This document shows positions 15,218-27,011 of a stretch of DNA of 64,000 nt, piece by piece; the stretch's first letter is position 1; each line of letters starts with the position of its first letter. The notes beneath the pieces are model-generated. The model searched no databases and had not been told where the DNA came from. It saw only the letters and a list, made by a program, of their open reading frames with translations. The stretch spans positions 1-64,000 of the forward strand of contig PLZV01000060.1 of NCBI GenBank assembly GCA_003152315.1, written 5' to 3'. This DNA comes from Verrucomicrobiota bacterium. GTDB taxonomy: Bacteria; Verrucomicrobiota; Verrucomicrobiia; Palsa-1439. Position numbers and translations under genes: made by a program.

Positions 15218-15268
15218 ATGACACAAAACGAAAGCATGCAAACACTGCTCCTTGCGCTCAATGGATAA
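15218..15268 (+). CDS. possible 16-aa leader peptide of the aviRa-like gene
   Basis: The ORF reads MTQNESMQTLLLALNG and stops with TAA at 15266-15268, overlapping the methyltransferase start (ATG 15261) by 8 nt in another frame. Its ATG is about 7 nt after a consensus TATAAT, so it could be translated from a leaderless mRNA and feed ribosomes to the downstream gene. rRNA methyltransferases such as the Erm group are often controlled by leader peptides. Alternatively it is chance; it has no known family. Confidence 0.35.
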   Translation: MTQNESMQTLLLALNG

Positions 15269-16061
15269 AGAAAGGAAAATATCCAAGAATAAATATCGTT
15301 TTGTCGAGCCAGGGGACAACTACGAAGACTATTCAAGCGGACGCGTTTTATACGGAGCGCCCGGTGCGACAAATTTCTCTGTTCGTTTGATAAGCGAGAT
15401 ATTTCAGCGCTGTGCAGAGTACCTGAACTCAAAAGGAAACTCTGGGCCGTTTGTCATCTATGACCCGCTGTGCGGTGCAGGCTATTCCCTCGCAGTCTTG
15501 GGTCTTCTCCACGGCTCTTCAATAAAATCAATTTTTGCTTCGGATGTAGACTCAATCCTATTGGAGTTTGCGAACAAAAACTTGTCTCTGGTGAATGCAA
15601 GCGGATTGGACAAGAGGATAGAGGAATTGAAGGTCTTCGTAGAAAAATATACGAAACAGTCTCACAAAGATGCCTTGGAAAGCGCGTATCGACTAAGAGC
15701 CAAGATCGCATCTCATTCCTCAATTGACGAGCGCGCTTTTCATGCCGACATCCTTGACGAAACATTACTCCCGTCATTTCTTTTAGGAGTGGATATTGTC
15801 ATCACGGATCTGCCGTATGGGAAATTAACAAGTTGGGGCGGAATGGGAGACGATGCCACGGCGACCAGGACGCTCCTGGATAAGCTGCATGATCGTCTTC
15901 ACGGGCCAGCCATAGCGGCAATCAGTTCTCACAAACAACAACGCTTGGAATACGATGCCGACACGTATCATGAGATAATGGCCTTTACCTTGGAGAAGAG
16001 AAACATCGTTCTATTGGAACCTACTGGTCCGCCTCCGACCCCTACCCCTCCACCACACTAA
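15261..16061 (+). CDS. AviRa-like 23S rRNA (guanine-N2) methyltransferase
   Basis: The 266-aa product resembles AviRa, the SAM-dependent 23S rRNA methyltransferase giving avilamycin resistance in Streptomyces. Shared features are YGAPGATNFSVRLISEIFQR near residue 34, the SAM-binding YDPLCGAGYSLAVLGLLHG near 70, ASDVDSILLEFANKNL, and the catalytic-type DLPYGKLTSWGG. The ATG at 15261 is preferred to a TTG at 15252; no Shine-Dalgarno is seen, so coupling to the overlapping 16-codon ORF is plausible. It is visibly more AT-rich than the surrounding core genes. Its last seven codons (PTPTPPPH region) overlap the 3' end of lpxC-fabZ, so its C-terminus is partly made of fabZ-antisense sequence. Avilamycin resistance is not established for homologues outside actinomycetes. 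Confidence 0.8.
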   Translation: MDKERKISKNKYRFVEPGDNYEDYSSGRVLYGAPGATNFSVRLISEIFQRCAEYLNSKGNSGPFVIYDPLCGAGYSLAVLGLLHGSSIKSIFASDVDSILLEFANKNLSLVNASGLDKRIEELKVFVEKYTKQSHKDALESAYRLRAKIASHSSIDERAFHADILDETLLPSFLLGVDIVITDLPYGKLTSWGGMGDDATATRTLLDKLHDRLHGPAIAAISSHKQQRLEYDADTYHEIMAFTLEKRNIVLLEPTGPPPTPTPPPH

Positions 16062-19147: not shown

Positions 19148-19801
19148 ATGATCGTAGGCATGTACATGAAACGGGACGTCGAGGTCATCTCTCCCACGGC
19201 GTCTCTTGTGGAAGGCATCAAGAAGATGTCGACGCGTCGGATCCGTCGGCTCGTCGTCATGCAAGGATCATCCATCCGCGGCATCGTCACCCAACGGGAT
19301 ATCGTGGAAGCGTTTCCGCCGCACATCAACCCCTTCTCGGTGCTCGGGGTTGAGCAAACGACCGTCAGCGCAACCATCGAGTCCATCATGAAACCTGCCG
19401 TCGTTACCATCAAGGAGCACGAGCCGATCGAGTACGCCGCCGAGTTGATGACTCGCCATCGCATCGGTTGCCTGGTGGTCACGCAGGATGGCTTGCTGGT
19501 CGGCATCATCACCGAATCAGACATTTTTCGGGCCTTCACTGGATTGCTGGCCGAACGCGATGGCGCGGTCAGGATTACCTTTGACCTGACCGAGCGAGAG
19601 AAAGTCCTGACATTCCTTGAGGACGCCGTGCAAGCGCTCGATCTCGAGTTGCTGAGTTTCCTGACATTTCACGAAAGCAATCGACGGTTGGCTGTCGCCC
19701 GCGTGCAAGGCGAAAAAGTCGATAAGCTCATCGACAAACTTTGGGAATCAGGTCATTCCGTCGTGAATGTTCTCCGGCCGGAAGCACATAGCGAGTCGTA
19801 G
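19148..19801 (+). CDS. CBS-domain pair with C-terminal ACT-like domain
   Basis: The 217-aa protein has two CBS motifs (ISPTASLVEGIKKMSTRRIR... and KEHEPIEYAAELMTRHRIG...), ending in GIVTQRDIVEAF and GIITESDIFRAF, over residues 1-133, then an ACT-like domain (FDLTEREKVLTFLEDAVQAL). The architecture resembles AcuB-type sensors. CBS pairs usually bind adenine nucleotides and ACT domains bind amino acids. It stands 63 bp before the livK-type gene on the same strand, so a regulatory role in amino-acid uptake is a fair inference but not shown. Confidence 0.85.
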   Translation: MIVGMYMKRDVEVISPTASLVEGIKKMSTRRIRRLVVMQGSSIRGIVTQRDIVEAFPPHINPFSVLGVEQTTVSATIESIMKPAVVTIKEHEPIEYAAELMTRHRIGCLVVTQDGLLVGIITESDIFRAFTGLLAERDGAVRITFDLTEREKVLTFLEDAVQALDLELLSFLTFHESNRRLAVARVQGEKVDKLIDKLWESGHSVVNVLRPEAHSES

Positions 19802-19864
19802 GCCGGCGCCACACAGGCGGCATTTGGCATTGCAGGCCTGCCCCGTTTGTGCCAAAACCCCTGC

Positions 19865-21061
19865 ATGAAACGATTGTTCTTTCCGCTTTGTCTCGGCGTC
19901 CTGGCAATGACCTGTTCCGCAGCTCTCGCCGCCGATTCGCAGGTCATCAAGATCGTCTCCAGCCTGCCCCGCACGGGCAGCGCCAACGCGCAGAGCACCA
20001 CCTTGGTCAACGGCATCAAGATTGCCATCGACGAGGTCGGCGGCAAGATCGGCGATTACACCCTCGCTTACGAAGACTGGGATGACGCATCTCCCGAGCG
20101 CGGCCAGTGGGATCCCGCCGTAGAGGCGGCGAACGCGCAGAAGGCCGTCAAAGATCCCGACATCATGGCCTACATCGGCACCTACAACTCCGGTGCCGCG
20201 AAAATCTCAATGCCAATTCTCAACCAGGCTTCCCTCTTAATGGTCAGCCCTGCCAACACCTACCCCGGCCTCACGAAACCGGGCATGGGCGAAGCGAATG
20301 AGCCGCAGGTGTACCGTCCCTCCGGCAAAATCAATTTCTTCCGTGTCGTGCCCGCCGACGATATCCAGGGCGAAGTCGCGGCGCAGTGGGCCAAGGAACT
20401 CGGTGTGAAAAAAGTCTTCATCCTCCACGACCGCGAACTCTACGGCAAAGGCGTGGCGGACGTGTTCAAGCGCGCCTGCATCAAACTCGGCATCACCGTC
20501 GTCGGCTACGAAGGTATCGACCCGAAAGCCGCGAACTACCGCTCACTCATGACCAAGGTCAAAAGCACCGATGCCGACATGGTGTATTTCGGCGGTACGA
20601 CGCAGACGAACGCTGGTCAGTTGGCCAAGGACCTCGTCTCCGTCGGCGCGCGCGCGAAGTTCATGGTCCCCGACGGCTGCCGCGAACAAGCGCTCATCGA
20701 GTCGGCCGGCAAAGACAACCTCGACGACCGCACCTACGTCACCTTCGGCGGTCTGCCGCCAAGCCAGTTGAAAGGCCGCGGCCGCGAGTTCTATGACAAC
20801 TACAAGAAGAAGTACAACGCCGAGCCCGAAGCCTACGCCGTGTACGGCTACGAAGCCGCTCGCGTTGTCCTCGAAGGTATCAAACGCGCCGGCAAAAAAG
20901 ACCGCGCCGCCGTCACCGAAGCCATCACCAACCTCCGCGACTTCGACGGCGTCCTCGGCAAATGGTCCTTCGACCAAAACGGCGACACCAGTCTGAAAGT
21001 CATGGCCGTGGAAGAGATCAAAGACGGCAAATTCACCCCCGTAAAAATCGTGGGGATGTAG
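19865..21061 (+). CDS. livK: branched-chain amino-acid ABC transporter substrate-binding protein
   Basis: The 398-aa periplasmic protein begins with a signal peptide (MKRLFFPLCLGVLAMTCSAALAA) and continues as a type I periplasmic binding protein (VIKIVSSLPRTGSANAQS..., AYIGTYNSGAAKISMPILNQ, FILHDRELYGKGVADVFK). It captures the ligand for the LivHMGF permease encoded at 22478-26227. The ligand need not be a branched-chain amino acid; related proteins bind urea, amides or other amino acids. Three genes unrelated to transport lie between it and livH. Confidence 0.9.
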   Translation: MKRLFFPLCLGVLAMTCSAALAADSQVIKIVSSLPRTGSANAQSTTLVNGIKIAIDEVGGKIGDYTLAYEDWDDASPERGQWDPAVEAANAQKAVKDPDIMAYIGTYNSGAAKISMPILNQASLLMVSPANTYPGLTKPGMGEANEPQVYRPSGKINFFRVVPADDIQGEVAAQWAKELGVKKVFILHDRELYGKGVADVFKRACIKLGITVVGYEGIDPKAANYRSLMTKVKSTDADMVYFGGTTQTNAGQLAKDLVSVGARAKFMVPDGCREQALIESAGKDNLDDRTYVTFGGLPPSQLKGRGREFYDNYKKKYNAEPEAYAVYGYEAARVVLEGIKRAGKKDRAAVTEAITNLRDFDGVLGKWSFDQNGDTSLKVMAVEEIKDGKFTPVKIVGM

Positions 21062-21074
21062 GAAGCTAATAGCA

Positions 21075-21356
21075 GTGACGGCAAAGTTCAAAGCAGCAAG
21101 CACATTCACTATTACTGGCAGAGGTTTAGTGCTCGCTGGTGAGATCTTGGAAGGCTTTGTTAAGATCGGAATGAAAGTTCGTGTCCCGTCGTATTCGCAA
21201 GATCTGACTATCAACGGAATATCACCCATTCACAATGTGCAAAACCCTAGCTTGGTCGGACTCTTGTTTAGCAGTCATGACGAGAATGAGTCTATTCGCT
21301 GGCAGGGACTTGATCTACAAGATCGGGTTCTGGAAGTTTTTGACGAAAGTAGTTAA
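21075..21356 (+). CDS. small protein resembling EF-Tu domain II
   Basis: The 93-aa product contains FTITGRGLVLAGEILEGFVK and IGMKVRVP, closely recalling the translation-factor domain II barrel (FxIxGRGxVxxGRIExGxxKxGD). No GTPase domain is present. Stand-alone EF-Tu-like barrels are known as small hypothetical proteins; no function is assigned. The start codon is GTG and no clear ribosome-binding site is seen, so the N-terminus is uncertain. Its base composition is lower in GC than livK just upstream. Confidence 0.55.
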   Translation: MTAKFKAASTFTITGRGLVLAGEILEGFVKIGMKVRVPSYSQDLTINGISPIHNVQNPSLVGLLFSSHDENESIRWQGLDLQDRVLEVFDESS

Positions 21357-21403: not shown

Positions 21404-21829
21404 ATGACAAAGGAAGAAATGATAGAACTGGAAGAAGGAAACCGGCTCAAGCTGGATTTCGGCAAGCTGGCCAAGGTGGTCGCGCGTTGCCCCAACGTCA
21501 TCCCCGTCGCCGTGCAAAACGCCGACACCAAAGAAGTCATCCTCCTCGCGTACACGAATGAAGAAGCCTTCAAGAAGAGCATCGAGACCCGCATTGCCAC
21601 CTTCTGGAGCACTTCCCGAAACGAACTATGGATTAAGGGCAAGACTTCCGGCCATTATTTTGAACTCGTTGAAATCCGTGTGAATTGCGAACAAAACTCC
21701 CTCGTCTATTTCGTCCGCCCCAAAGGCGAAGCGATCTGCCACACGAACAATCGCCAGGGTAAACCCAGGAATTGCTATTATCGCAAACTGGACTTGGACA
21801 GCGGTTCCCTCACAAATACGAATCCGTAA
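21404..21829 (+). CDS. hisI: phosphoribosyl-AMP cyclohydrolase-like protein (HisI)
   Basis: The 141-aa product matches HisI, which opens the purine ring of PR-AMP in histidine synthesis: PVAVQNADTKEVILLAYTNE, FWSTSRNELWIKGKTSG, ICHTNNR. Zinc-type cysteines are C95, C112 and C124. The usual D-C-D-x-D metal motif reads N-C-E-x-N here (94-98), and the loop between the last two Cys is five residues longer than usual. GAGGA 7 nt before ATG 21404 fixes the start. It is not in a his operon but between livK and livH, so either an isolated pathway gene or a diverged paralogue. Activity is uncertain. Confidence 0.8.
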   Translation: MTKEEMIELEEGNRLKLDFGKLAKVVARCPNVIPVAVQNADTKEVILLAYTNEEAFKKSIETRIATFWSTSRNELWIKGKTSGHYFELVEIRVNCEQNSLVYFVRPKGEAICHTNNRQGKPRNCYYRKLDLDSGSLTNTNP

Positions 21830-21850: not shown

Positions 21851-22369
21851 ATGAAGAGAGCGCTACTATCAGGGTTGTCAGCTGGGTTGCTCGCGTTGTG
21901 CGGCTGTGCCGCCGGGATTTCGCGTCAAGGCTACACCCTTCGGGACATCAACAAGCCCGGCCATCCAACCGACTGCCATCTCACCGTCAAGTGCAATGCA
22001 ACTTACGCGTTGGCGGATGCCGACGTGGTGGGGCATATCGAAGCCTTTGATACATCCGTATCAATCAACTGCGATGAGGCGTATGTCTTGGATATTTTCT
22101 GCAAGGAAGCCTGTGCGCTGGGGGCCGATGTGGTCAACGTCACCGACGAGCATTATCCGAACTTCTGGAGCACTTGTTATCGAGCCAAGGCCGAATTCTT
22201 GCGCTACAAGGACCGCGATCAGGTCAAACTGCTTGTATCCGATGCCAAGTACGATCCTCAATTGATCATCCAAAGATCCAAAGAGAGCAAAAAACGAACC
22301 GAGGCCGTGATCATCGCCACCGTCATGGGCGGCGTGTTGGGCGGGCTAATCGTGTCCGCCGCGCACTGA
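21851..22369 (+). CDS. lipoprotein with C-terminal glycine-rich membrane helix
   Basis: The 172-aa product has a lipoprotein signal (MKRALLSGLSAGLLALCGC) and a C-terminal hydrophobic helix (AVIIATVMGGVLGGLIVSAA). The middle is cysteine-rich (DCHLTVKCNATYA, SINCDEAYVLDIFCKEACA), suggesting disulfides. GGAGG before ATG 21851 supports the start. Not a family I recognise. It lies 21 bp after hisI and 108 bp before livH, with an inverted repeat in the latter gap. Confidence 0.75.
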   Translation: MKRALLSGLSAGLLALCGCAAGISRQGYTLRDINKPGHPTDCHLTVKCNATYALADADVVGHIEAFDTSVSINCDEAYVLDIFCKEACALGADVVNVTDEHYPNFWSTCYRAKAEFLRYKDRDQVKLLVSDAKYDPQLIIQRSKESKKRTEAVIIATVMGGVLGGLIVSAAH

Positions 22370-22477: not shown

Positions 22478-23440
22478 ATGTCGGGCAGTGAGATTTTCCT
22501 GCAACAACTGATCATCGGATTGTCCAACGGGATGATCATCGCCCTCATCGCCCTGGGCTACACGATGGTCTACGGTATCATCGAACTCATCAATTTCGCC
22601 CATGGCGACCTCTTCATGCTCGGCAGTTTCGCGGCGCTGACAGTGGTGGGTCTTCTCGGACTCGACCACCTCGCTGCCGGCGCGCCCGGCATGTGGTCAG
22701 GTCTTTTCCTGATGTTGCTAATCGTACCGCTCTTCTGCGGCAGCCTAAACTGGCTCGCCGATCGATTTGCCTACCGCCATCTTCGCGATTCCACCAAGCT
22801 CGCCCCGCTCGTCTCGGCAATCGGTCTCTCGTTCGTGTTCATGAATATCGGCCTGCTCTGGGGTGGCGTACCGATGAACGTTTTTGGGTTGGGACGCTCC
22901 GCCGCCTCACCCAAGGATTTCCCCGCTCTCGTCTCGAACGTCAACCTGCTCGGCCAAAGCGCCGTGGAATTCACGACCAAAGACCTCATGGTTTTCGTGA
23001 TAACGCTGCCGCTGATGGTTTTGCTAACGTGGTTCGTAAAAGGCACGCGGGCGGGCAAGGCCATGCGCGCGGTGGCGCAGGACCGGGTGGCAGCTCGATT
23101 GATGGGCATTCCCGTTGACCGCGTCATTGGACAAACGTTTCTAATCGGCGGAGCGCTGGCCGGTGTCGCCAGCGTCGTGTCATCCGTCTATAACAACACG
23201 ATCTACTTTCAAATGGGCTATCGCGCGGGCGTGGACGCGTTTACCGCGGCTGTTTTCGGCGGCATCGGCAGCCTACCGGGCGCAGTGCTGGGCGGACTGG
23301 TCATCGGCCTGGCACGGGCCATGTGCGATCAGTATCTGGAAACCCGCTGGACAAACGTGCTGGTTTTCACCGTCCTGATTCTGGTGCTCGTATTTCGTCC
23401 ACAGGGACTGCTCGGCGCCCGCGCCAAGGAGAAAGTCTGA
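22478..23440 (+). CDS. livH: branched-chain amino-acid ABC transporter permease LivH
   Basis: The 320-aa inner-membrane permease has the family N-terminus (FLQQLIIGLSNGMIIALIAL followed by GYTMVYGIIELINFAHGD), about eight hydrophobic segments, and the conserved cytoplasmic loop KAMRAVAQDRVAARLMGI that contacts the ATPases. It pairs with LivM. The stop overlaps the livM ATG by one base. Confidence 0.95.
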   Translation: MSGSEIFLQQLIIGLSNGMIIALIALGYTMVYGIIELINFAHGDLFMLGSFAALTVVGLLGLDHLAAGAPGMWSGLFLMLLIVPLFCGSLNWLADRFAYRHLRDSTKLAPLVSAIGLSFVFMNIGLLWGGVPMNVFGLGRSAASPKDFPALVSNVNLLGQSAVEFTTKDLMVFVITLPLMVLLTWFVKGTRAGKAMRAVAQDRVAARLMGIPVDRVIGQTFLIGGALAGVASVVSSVYNNTIYFQMGYRAGVDAFTAAVFGGIGSLPGAVLGGLVIGLARAMCDQYLETRWTNVLVFTVLILVLVFRPQGLLGARAKEKV

Positions 23441-26234: not shown

Positions 26235-26603
26235 ATGACCAAACCAACCGTGGCCATCGTCGGCGCGTCGGCCGACCAAAGCAAATTCAGCAATAAGTCC
26301 ATCCATGCGCATCTGCTGGCGGGCTACGATGTTTATCCTGTCAACCCGAAGGAAGAAACAATCGAGGGCTTGAAATGCTACAAGTCCGTTGCCGAAATCC
26401 CCGTGACGCTCGACCGCATCAGCCTTTACCTCCCTCCTGCTGTTGGCCTGAAGGTTCTCGACGACATTGCCAAAAAAGGCTGTCAGGAACTGTGGGTGAA
26501 CCCCGGTGCCGATAGCCCTGAACTCATCCAGAAAGCCCAGACCCTCGGCCTCAACCCCATCGTCGCCTGCTCGTTCACCGACGCGTTGGCGCATCACACC
26601 TAA
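26235..26603 (+). CDS. CoA-binding domain protein (YccU-like)
   Basis: The 122-aa Rossmann-fold protein has VAIVGASADQSKFSNKSIHA and YDVYPVNPKEETIEG, the CoA_binding_2 pattern seen in YccU and in the N-terminal part of acyl-CoA synthetases (ADP-forming). No catalytic domain is present. It follows livF by 7 bp and precedes an ACT protein by 18 bp, so it may be co-transcribed with the transporter. Ligand and role are not known. Confidence 0.8.
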   Translation: MTKPTVAIVGASADQSKFSNKSIHAHLLAGYDVYPVNPKEETIEGLKCYKSVAEIPVTLDRISLYLPPAVGLKVLDDIAKKGCQELWVNPGADSPELIQKAQTLGLNPIVACSFTDALAHHT

Positions 26604-26621
26604 CCAATCGCGGAGACCACC

Positions 26622-27011
26622 ATGACAATACGAACTGAACTTTCCATCATCCTGCCCAATCGTCCCGGCACGCTCGGCGAGGTCACCAACGCCCTCGCCA
26701 AGGCGAAAGTAAACCTGCTCGCCATCGACGCGTCTGGCGGCTTCGAGTACAACATTGTCCGCATCGTACCGGATAAAGCGGCCAAGGCGCGCGCCGTTCT
26801 TCGCCGCAAAGGTCTCGACGTGGGTGAAACGAAGGTGCTCTGCATACCGGCCCAGGATAAACCCGGCGCTTTAGCCCGTGTGGCCGACGCGCTCGGCGGC
26901 GCGAAAGTGAACATCGACTACCTCTACGCCACGTCGGGTTGCCCGCAGTCAGAAACGCTGATCGTCGCGCACGTCTCCGACGCTCGGAAGGCCATCAAAG
27001 CCTTGCGTTAG
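26622..27011 (+). CDS. tandem ACT-domain protein
   Basis: Two ACT domains fill the 129-aa product: ELSIILPNRPGTLGEVTNAL (5-24) and IPAQDKPGALARVADALGGA (74 onward). No catalytic domain. It is close in sequence to the product of 28810-29214 (shared AKVNLLAID and VNIDYLYA strings). Likely an amino-acid sensor; being the last gene after livKHMGF it may respond to the transported amino acid (inference). Its stop overlaps the convergent UDG gene by 4 bp. Confidence 0.85.
   Translation: MTIRTELSIILPNRPGTLGEVTNALAKAKVNLLAIDASGGFEYNIVRIVPDKAAKARAVLRRKGLDVGETKVLCIPAQDKPGALARVADALGGAKVNIDYLYATSGCPQSETLIVAHVSDARKAIKALR

Follow-up and report, generated by a model that had tools for sequence, protein, structure and literature searches.

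Phosphoribosyl-AMP cyclohydrolase (PRA-CH, HisI), the enzyme of the third step of histidine synthesis, is found as a monofunctional protein and as part of the bifunctional HisIE and plant HISN2 proteins. As described in the excerpts of PMC8102479, MtHISN2 binds Zn2+ through Cys126, Cys142 and Cys149 with His143 as the base, and a second site made up of Asp125, Asp127 and Asp129 is likely to be occupied by Mg2+ in vivo and is a possible binding site for the N1-phosphoribosyl group. The same excerpts report the Asp site of PRA-CH as universally conserved. HisI paralogues have also been described in Zur regulons (excerpts of PMC2770081); these are second copies in Proteobacteria in which the zinc residues are conserved.

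The gene considered here lies at 21404–21829 on the forward strand of the window, by which we mean the whole stretch of 64,000 nucleotides that was analysed. It is highly probable that this gene encodes the working PRA-CH of its genome in a form with the motif N-C-E-x-N. This form and canonical HisI (PF01502; NF000768; 1zps) have in common the fold, three zinc cysteines, a histidine after the second of these, the W-x-K-G and S-x-S segments and the pathway context. The NCExN form differs from the canonical enzyme in having N-x-E-x-N for D-x-D-x-D, a longer Cys loop with an invariant Arg, mostly Arg instead of an acid at residue 105, a branch of its own and a score below the equivalog cut-off. 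Compared with HISN2 as described in the excerpts of PMC8102479, the window HisI has the same zinc ligands but lacks a HisE domain, and the equivalents of Asp125, Asp127 and Asp129 are Asn, Glu and Asn. The Zur-regulated paralogues are likewise variant HisI proteins viewed in terms of metal use; to judge from the excerpts of PMC2770081 they differ from the window HisI, which is a sole copy and in which it is the other metal site that has changed. The function is very probably an ordinary one, that of a known enzyme, and what is new is an active-site variant that departs from a catalytic motif regarded as 'universal'. No paper on the NCExN variant was among the literature matches listed, a set that covers few subscription papers.

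Sequence and predicted fold of the hisI product

The open reading frame at 21404–21829 (+) translates to 141 residues plus a stop and was assigned as a monofunctional PRA-CH homologue from the Pfam match, the predicted fold and its being the only such match in the genome. The product belongs to PF01502 (PRA-CH; E 9.9e-26, 89.8 bits against a cut-off of 27). An AlphaFold2 model built from a 57-row alignment had a pLDDT of 91.8, and its best solved match by Z was the HisI of M. thermautotrophicus, 1zps (Z 14.8, rmsd 2.0, 109 residues, 36% identity). The five entries of highest Z were all HisI, HisIE or HISN2, the bifunctional HisIE and plant HISN2 structures (6j2l, 6j22, 7bgm and 7bgn) resembling the model over the PRA-CH fold with Z of 13.8–14.5, while the next, unrelated entry had a Z of 4.5, so the predicted fold is that of PRA-CH.

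The codons at 21683–21697 (+) read N94-C95-E96-Q97-N98 in the residue columns where the D-C-D-x-D metal motif is expected, as the first-pass annotation of this DNA had noticed. The canonical equivalents of the motif residues are Asp125, Cys126, Asp127 and Asp129 of MtHISN2, as numbered in the excerpts of PMC8102479. The codons at 21737–21775 (+) specify the zinc-Cys loop, from C112-H113 to C124, which in the alignment contains an insert holding G119 and R122. The observation, made from the sequence at the outset, that this loop is five residues longer than usual was borne out. Cys112 and Cys124 are separated by 11 residues, and in a 271-row set, reached by several routes and containing some genomes twice, the spacing of the last two Cys is 6 in 58 of 60 DCDxD rows (the pattern was unmatched in the other two) and in all eight rows of a further, DDDxD form described below. 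The loop is 5 or 6 residues longer in 200 of the 202 NCExN-form rows.

The NCExN motif is not a chance change since it recurs in 107 proteins of the sampled phylum. The motif columns could be read in 106 of these in the first alignment, with N, C, Q and N each present in 106/106 and E in 105, the exception being a single D. The one unread row, L180 from genome G139, was read as NCExN in the later alignment and in the tree.

Active-site residues and the second metal site

Residues were compared between 71 non-redundant NCExN rows and 46 canonical rows, the latter (44 in the first alignment, 46 later) being top-scoring matches, second copies and picks rather than a random sample. The zinc ligands C95, C112 and C124 and the catalytic H113 are kept in 71/71 NCExN and 46/46 canonical rows. 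Together with S69, S71, R72, W76, K78, G79, S82 and G83 they make up the set of residues that the NCExN form shares with 44 or more of the 46 canonical rows. The Asp triad of the Mg2+ site is missing from the window protein, which has N94, E96 and N98. Residues 94 and 98 are N in all 71 NCExN rows and residue 96 is E in 69 and D in two, whereas every canonical row has D at all three positions. The zinc site of the NCExN form is intact, and its second, Asp, site is not. An early suggestion of changed metal use thus stands, at the level of sequence, for the aspartates; it does not stand for zinc, as the three Cys and the His are retained.

Besides N94, E96 and N98, the residues switched in the NCExN form are T70, S99, R105 and P106, together with the insert. 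T70 is R in all 46 canonical rows, yet Thr is found at this position in the canonical HisI of M. thermautotrophicus. R105 is present in 63 of the 71 NCExN rows, whereas an acid, E or D, stands there in 36 of the 46 canonical rows. Within the insert, G119 occurs in 68 and R122 in all 71 NCExN rows. Lys or Arg at residue 115 was also considered as an extra phosphate-binding gain and was dropped because Asn stands there in the window protein and Arg or Lys is common in the aligned column of the canonical rows.

By analogy with the canonical enzyme, Zn2+ on Cys95, Cys112 and Cys124 would activate a water molecule with His113 as general base, and the activated water would open the adenine ring of PR-AMP between N1 and C6. 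The canonical second metal site is formed between two subunits. Less surely, this site, which in canonical enzymes has three Asp with Mg2+ and perhaps holds the N1-phosphoribosyl, would have been remodelled to Asn/Glu/Asn, and its job may have passed wholly or partly to the gained positive charges of the inserted Arg122 and of Arg105. The coupling of a loss of negative charge with the gain of Arg122 and, mostly, Arg105 suggests the proposal that arginine may have taken over from Mg2+ in holding the substrate phosphate. In full, this would give a zinc-only clade of HisI in which Mg2+ is dispensed with and Arg122, helped by Arg105, neutralises the phosphate of the N1-phosphoribosyl, serving histidine synthesis in some two fifths of the phylum genomes sampled. 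We put this forward tentatively and lean against it in that complete form.

It is at least as likely that a divalent ion continues to be bound at N/E/N. The function would then be that of HisI just the same, with Mg2+ or another divalent ion bound via weaker or different ligands and with metal use little changed, and we find this nearly as easy to accept as to doubt. Asn is able to ligate Mg2+ in other enzymes. Residue 96 is acidic in every one of the 71 rows, and the ligands could be this acidic residue and an oxygen from each of the two Asn. However, the outer two Asp are gone from all 71 rows, in step with the appearance of an invariant Arg in the loop and a change that is mostly from acid to Arg at 105. 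The retention of a metal competes with the arginine-for-magnesium step only and not with the HisI role. If arginine does replace Mg2+, as the proposal predicts, a clade working without Mg2+ at the Asp site would amount to a natural experiment on the purpose of the second metal. The universality of the Asp triad fails in any case because the NCExN form is widespread and has all three residues swapped out. The excerpts of PMC8102479 treat the Asp site as universally conserved and Mg2+ as required for activity, and the NCExN clade would be an exception to this.

Distribution and phylogeny

The phylum sample consisted of 276 genomes drawn evenly from a larger group. With P0001 as query, matches were found in 260 of the 276. 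The best 80 of 231 matches include Kiritimatiellae, Lentisphaerae and Opitutales, and the sampled phylum would seem to be Verrucomicrobiota in the wide sense. The NCExN form is present in 107 of the 276 genomes, the window's own included, and is sharply separate from the remainder, its members having E 6.5e-35 or better with this query and the next match 6.6e-26. Outside the phylum, and again among the best 80 of 231 matches, it was seen in metagenome-assembled genomes (MAGs) whose NCBI labels, which may be wrong, are Spirochaetes, Desulfobacterales, Bacillota, Chitinivibrionales, Fibrobacter and Binatia. Of 11 such genomes, nine have one PF01502 match and two have two.

A tree was made from 125 non-redundant rows using 90 columns, the motif and Cys-loop columns having been removed; a degenerate row (L164) and a duplicate of the window's copy (L001) were left out. 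All 71 NCExN rows fall on one side of a single branch with support of 100/98, a split present in 100% of 200 bootstrap trees. This was the outcome of a phylogeny that the first-pass annotation had recommended. The tree is unrooted, and these rows form a clade provided that the root falls outside them. Many inner forks are left open by the small number of columns. The window's copy does not group with the NCExN copies of its own class; its partners, at 99/98, are L065, from a MAG labelled Spirochaetes, and L064, from one labelled Desulfobacterales. This grouping may reflect a horizontal origin of the window's hisI, with the reservation that the labels of MAGs can be mistaken and that the tree used no more than 90 columns.

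A second form of HisI, DDDxD, was found at eight loci (L153, L154, L155, L156, L158, L159, L160 and L273) and resembles the NCExN form in departing from the 'universal' DCDxD. It differs in keeping the Asp triad, in having Asp in place of a zinc Cys, which leaves two Cys for holding zinc, in its normal loop length and in its position, all eight rows lying on one side of a separate branch (98/92). The DDDxD protein is the sole PF01502 match in G210 and G042, and the genus-mate of G210, G131, has the NCExN form. It is a second copy beside DCDxD in G199, G237 and G243 and beside NCExN in G023, G189 and G267. The row L164 (G141, contig C54, minus strand) is a degenerate HisI-like domain with NCTLD for DCDxD and a PF01502 match below the cut-off (E 3.3e-5). 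The domain stands at the head of a long open frame, the later part of which looks MurB-like and D-Ala-D-Ala-ligase-like by eye.

Copy number and histidine pathway genes

A six-frame search of the whole assembly (a draft of 4.89 Mb in 62 contigs, 95.8% complete with 3.3% contamination) found a single PF01502 match, the hisI of the window. The first-pass annotation had advised looking for a second, canonical hisI in the genome, and this search of the assembly gave none. The genome has hisG (C10), hisF (C25), hisH-hisA (C36) and hisB with hisD (both C18), and the window protein is the sole PRA-CH beside these histidine-pathway genes. Among the 107 in-phylum NCExN genomes, 104 have no other PF01502 match, and in three genomes listed as one contig (G078, G081 and G186) the NCExN protein is the only HisI. 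The other three NCExN genomes, G023, G189 and G267, have a second PF01502 protein, each of the DDDxD form.

The presence of hisG was surveyed in 264 genomes. It was found in 102 of the 103 NCExN genomes examined (absent from G124), in 142 of 145 genomes with another form of HisI (absent from G092, G160 and G197) and in 10 of 16 genomes without a PF01502 match (absent from G005, G013, G040, G069, G105 and G166). At 27 of the 107 NCExN loci hisF lies directly upstream of hisI, within about 400 bp, a gap reckoned from the ends of BLAST matches and an approximate start of hisI. In total at least 33 of the 107 loci have hisF in the flank, in every case on the strand of hisI. This is a lower bound because the flanks were short, extending 1.5 kb at the first 30 loci and no more than about 3.5 kb at most of the others, with some ended by the contig. 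No his gene was present in such flanks (1.5 to about 4 kb) at 74 of the 107 loci, including that of the window.

The window's genome yielded no HisE scoring above the TIGR03188 cut-off, PF01503 and TIGR03188 giving one match each, and the step before HisI is therefore unfilled. The TIGR03188 match, below the cut-off, is in a 309-residue open frame that is MazG-like by eye (own genome, G000, C13:18158–18319, L143). G079, G083 and G263 each have, some 5 kb from hisI, an open frame of 269–319 residues that matches PF01503, and because of this a MazG-like protein may perform the HisE step. In G079 and G263 hisG adjoins hisI. That the NCExN form might itself carry out the HisE step is not claimed because canonical-HisI genomes of the same class, for example G010, G018, G021 and G045, also have no PF01503 match.

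The score of the window HisI against the NCBIfam equivalog NF000768 (PRK00051) was 100.5 bits, below the cut-off of 126. Six of six further NCExN members also fell below it (88.7 to 108.1 bits), whereas two of two canonical members (162.2 and 167.6) and two of two DDDxD members (141.8 and 161.4) passed. Since all seven NCExN members tried are below the cut-off, automatic pathway calls relying on it may wrongly score NCExN bacteria as lacking HisI.

The HisI role, which the gene very probably has, rests on homology, the predicted fold, the sole copy, co-occurrence with the pathway, adjacency to hisF in relatives and the single branch of the tree. Counting against it are the location of the window gene in a liv cluster and not a his cluster, the 74 of 107 loci at which the flanks covered contain no his gene, the scores of the window protein and of six further members under the NCBIfam cut-off, the lack of a HisE above cut-off, the three genomes with a second HisI and the statement in the excerpts of PMC8102479 that Mg2+ at the Asp site is essential in other PRA-CH enzymes. 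Given the sole copy, the hisG co-occurrence, the hisF adjacency and the one branch, the NCExN form has very probably replaced the canonical enzyme in some two fifths of the phylum genomes sampled.

The first-pass annotation had raised the idea that the gene is a paralogue acting on another nucleotide, and a purine-like substrate may be considered alongside. The liv location, the sub-threshold equivalog score and the NCExN copies that accompany a DDDxD copy could all be read in this way, but a specialised paralogue would sit poorly with the sole-copy pattern, the near-constant presence of hisG and the hisF genes directly upstream. Furthermore Trp76, Lys78, Gly79 and the SxS and WxKG..S regions, which bind substrate in the canonical enzyme (excerpts of PMC8102479), are kept, and we regard another substrate as very improbable. 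What that annotation had said would speak against its idea, namely this being the only hisI, with the same substitutions in functional enzymes of histidine-prototrophic relatives, is largely matched by the sole copy and by the recurrence of the substitutions in relatives that have hisG.

The draft state of the assembly would allow the protein to be a non-functional or moonlighting relic, with the real PRA-CH an unrelated enzyme or encoded in the missing 4%. This is very improbable as the reading frame is intact, the active-site residues are near-invariant over 71 non-redundant relatives and the sole-copy pattern includes the single-contig genomes. Least probable of all is a backup HisI for zinc limitation of the kind found in Zur regulons (excerpts of PMC2770081), since the genome has one PF01502 match rather than a second copy and all the zinc ligands are kept.

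Neighbourhood of hisI in the window

The gene had been placed between livK and livH, and this is right, but two further open frames share the gap. The livK-like gene, for a periplasmic binding protein of the branched-chain amino-acid type, is at 19847–21061 (+; PF13458, E 2.8e-45). It is followed at 21075–21356 (+) by a 93-residue frame with weak likeness to SelB and tRNA-binding Pbp11, far under both cut-offs. After hisI a 172-residue frame at 21851–22369 (+), with a lipoprotein-like N-terminus by eye, has no family match. The livH-like permease gene at 22478–23440 (+; PF02653, E 8.8e-43) heads a run of four transport frames to 26227, of which livM, livG and livF were named by eye. The absence of other his genes from the vicinity, also noted at first reading, was confirmed: the genome's hisG, hisA/F, hisB and hisD matches all lie outside the window. 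The hisH-hisA pair shares the contig of hisI and is located near 72 kb, some 50 kb away from it. In the loci compared, liv genes beside hisI were found only as the window's own copies, the other matches being distant ABC-ATPases.

At 19148–19801 and 26235–27011 the liv genes are flanked by genes for a CBS + ACT protein, a CoA-binding protein and an ACT pair, and because of these flanking genes the whole suggests an amino-acid-sensing transport cluster. Further upstream, at 15252–16061, is a gene for an AviRa-type rRNA methyltransferase (PF11599, E 7.2e-64), a family that includes an avilamycin-resistance protein.
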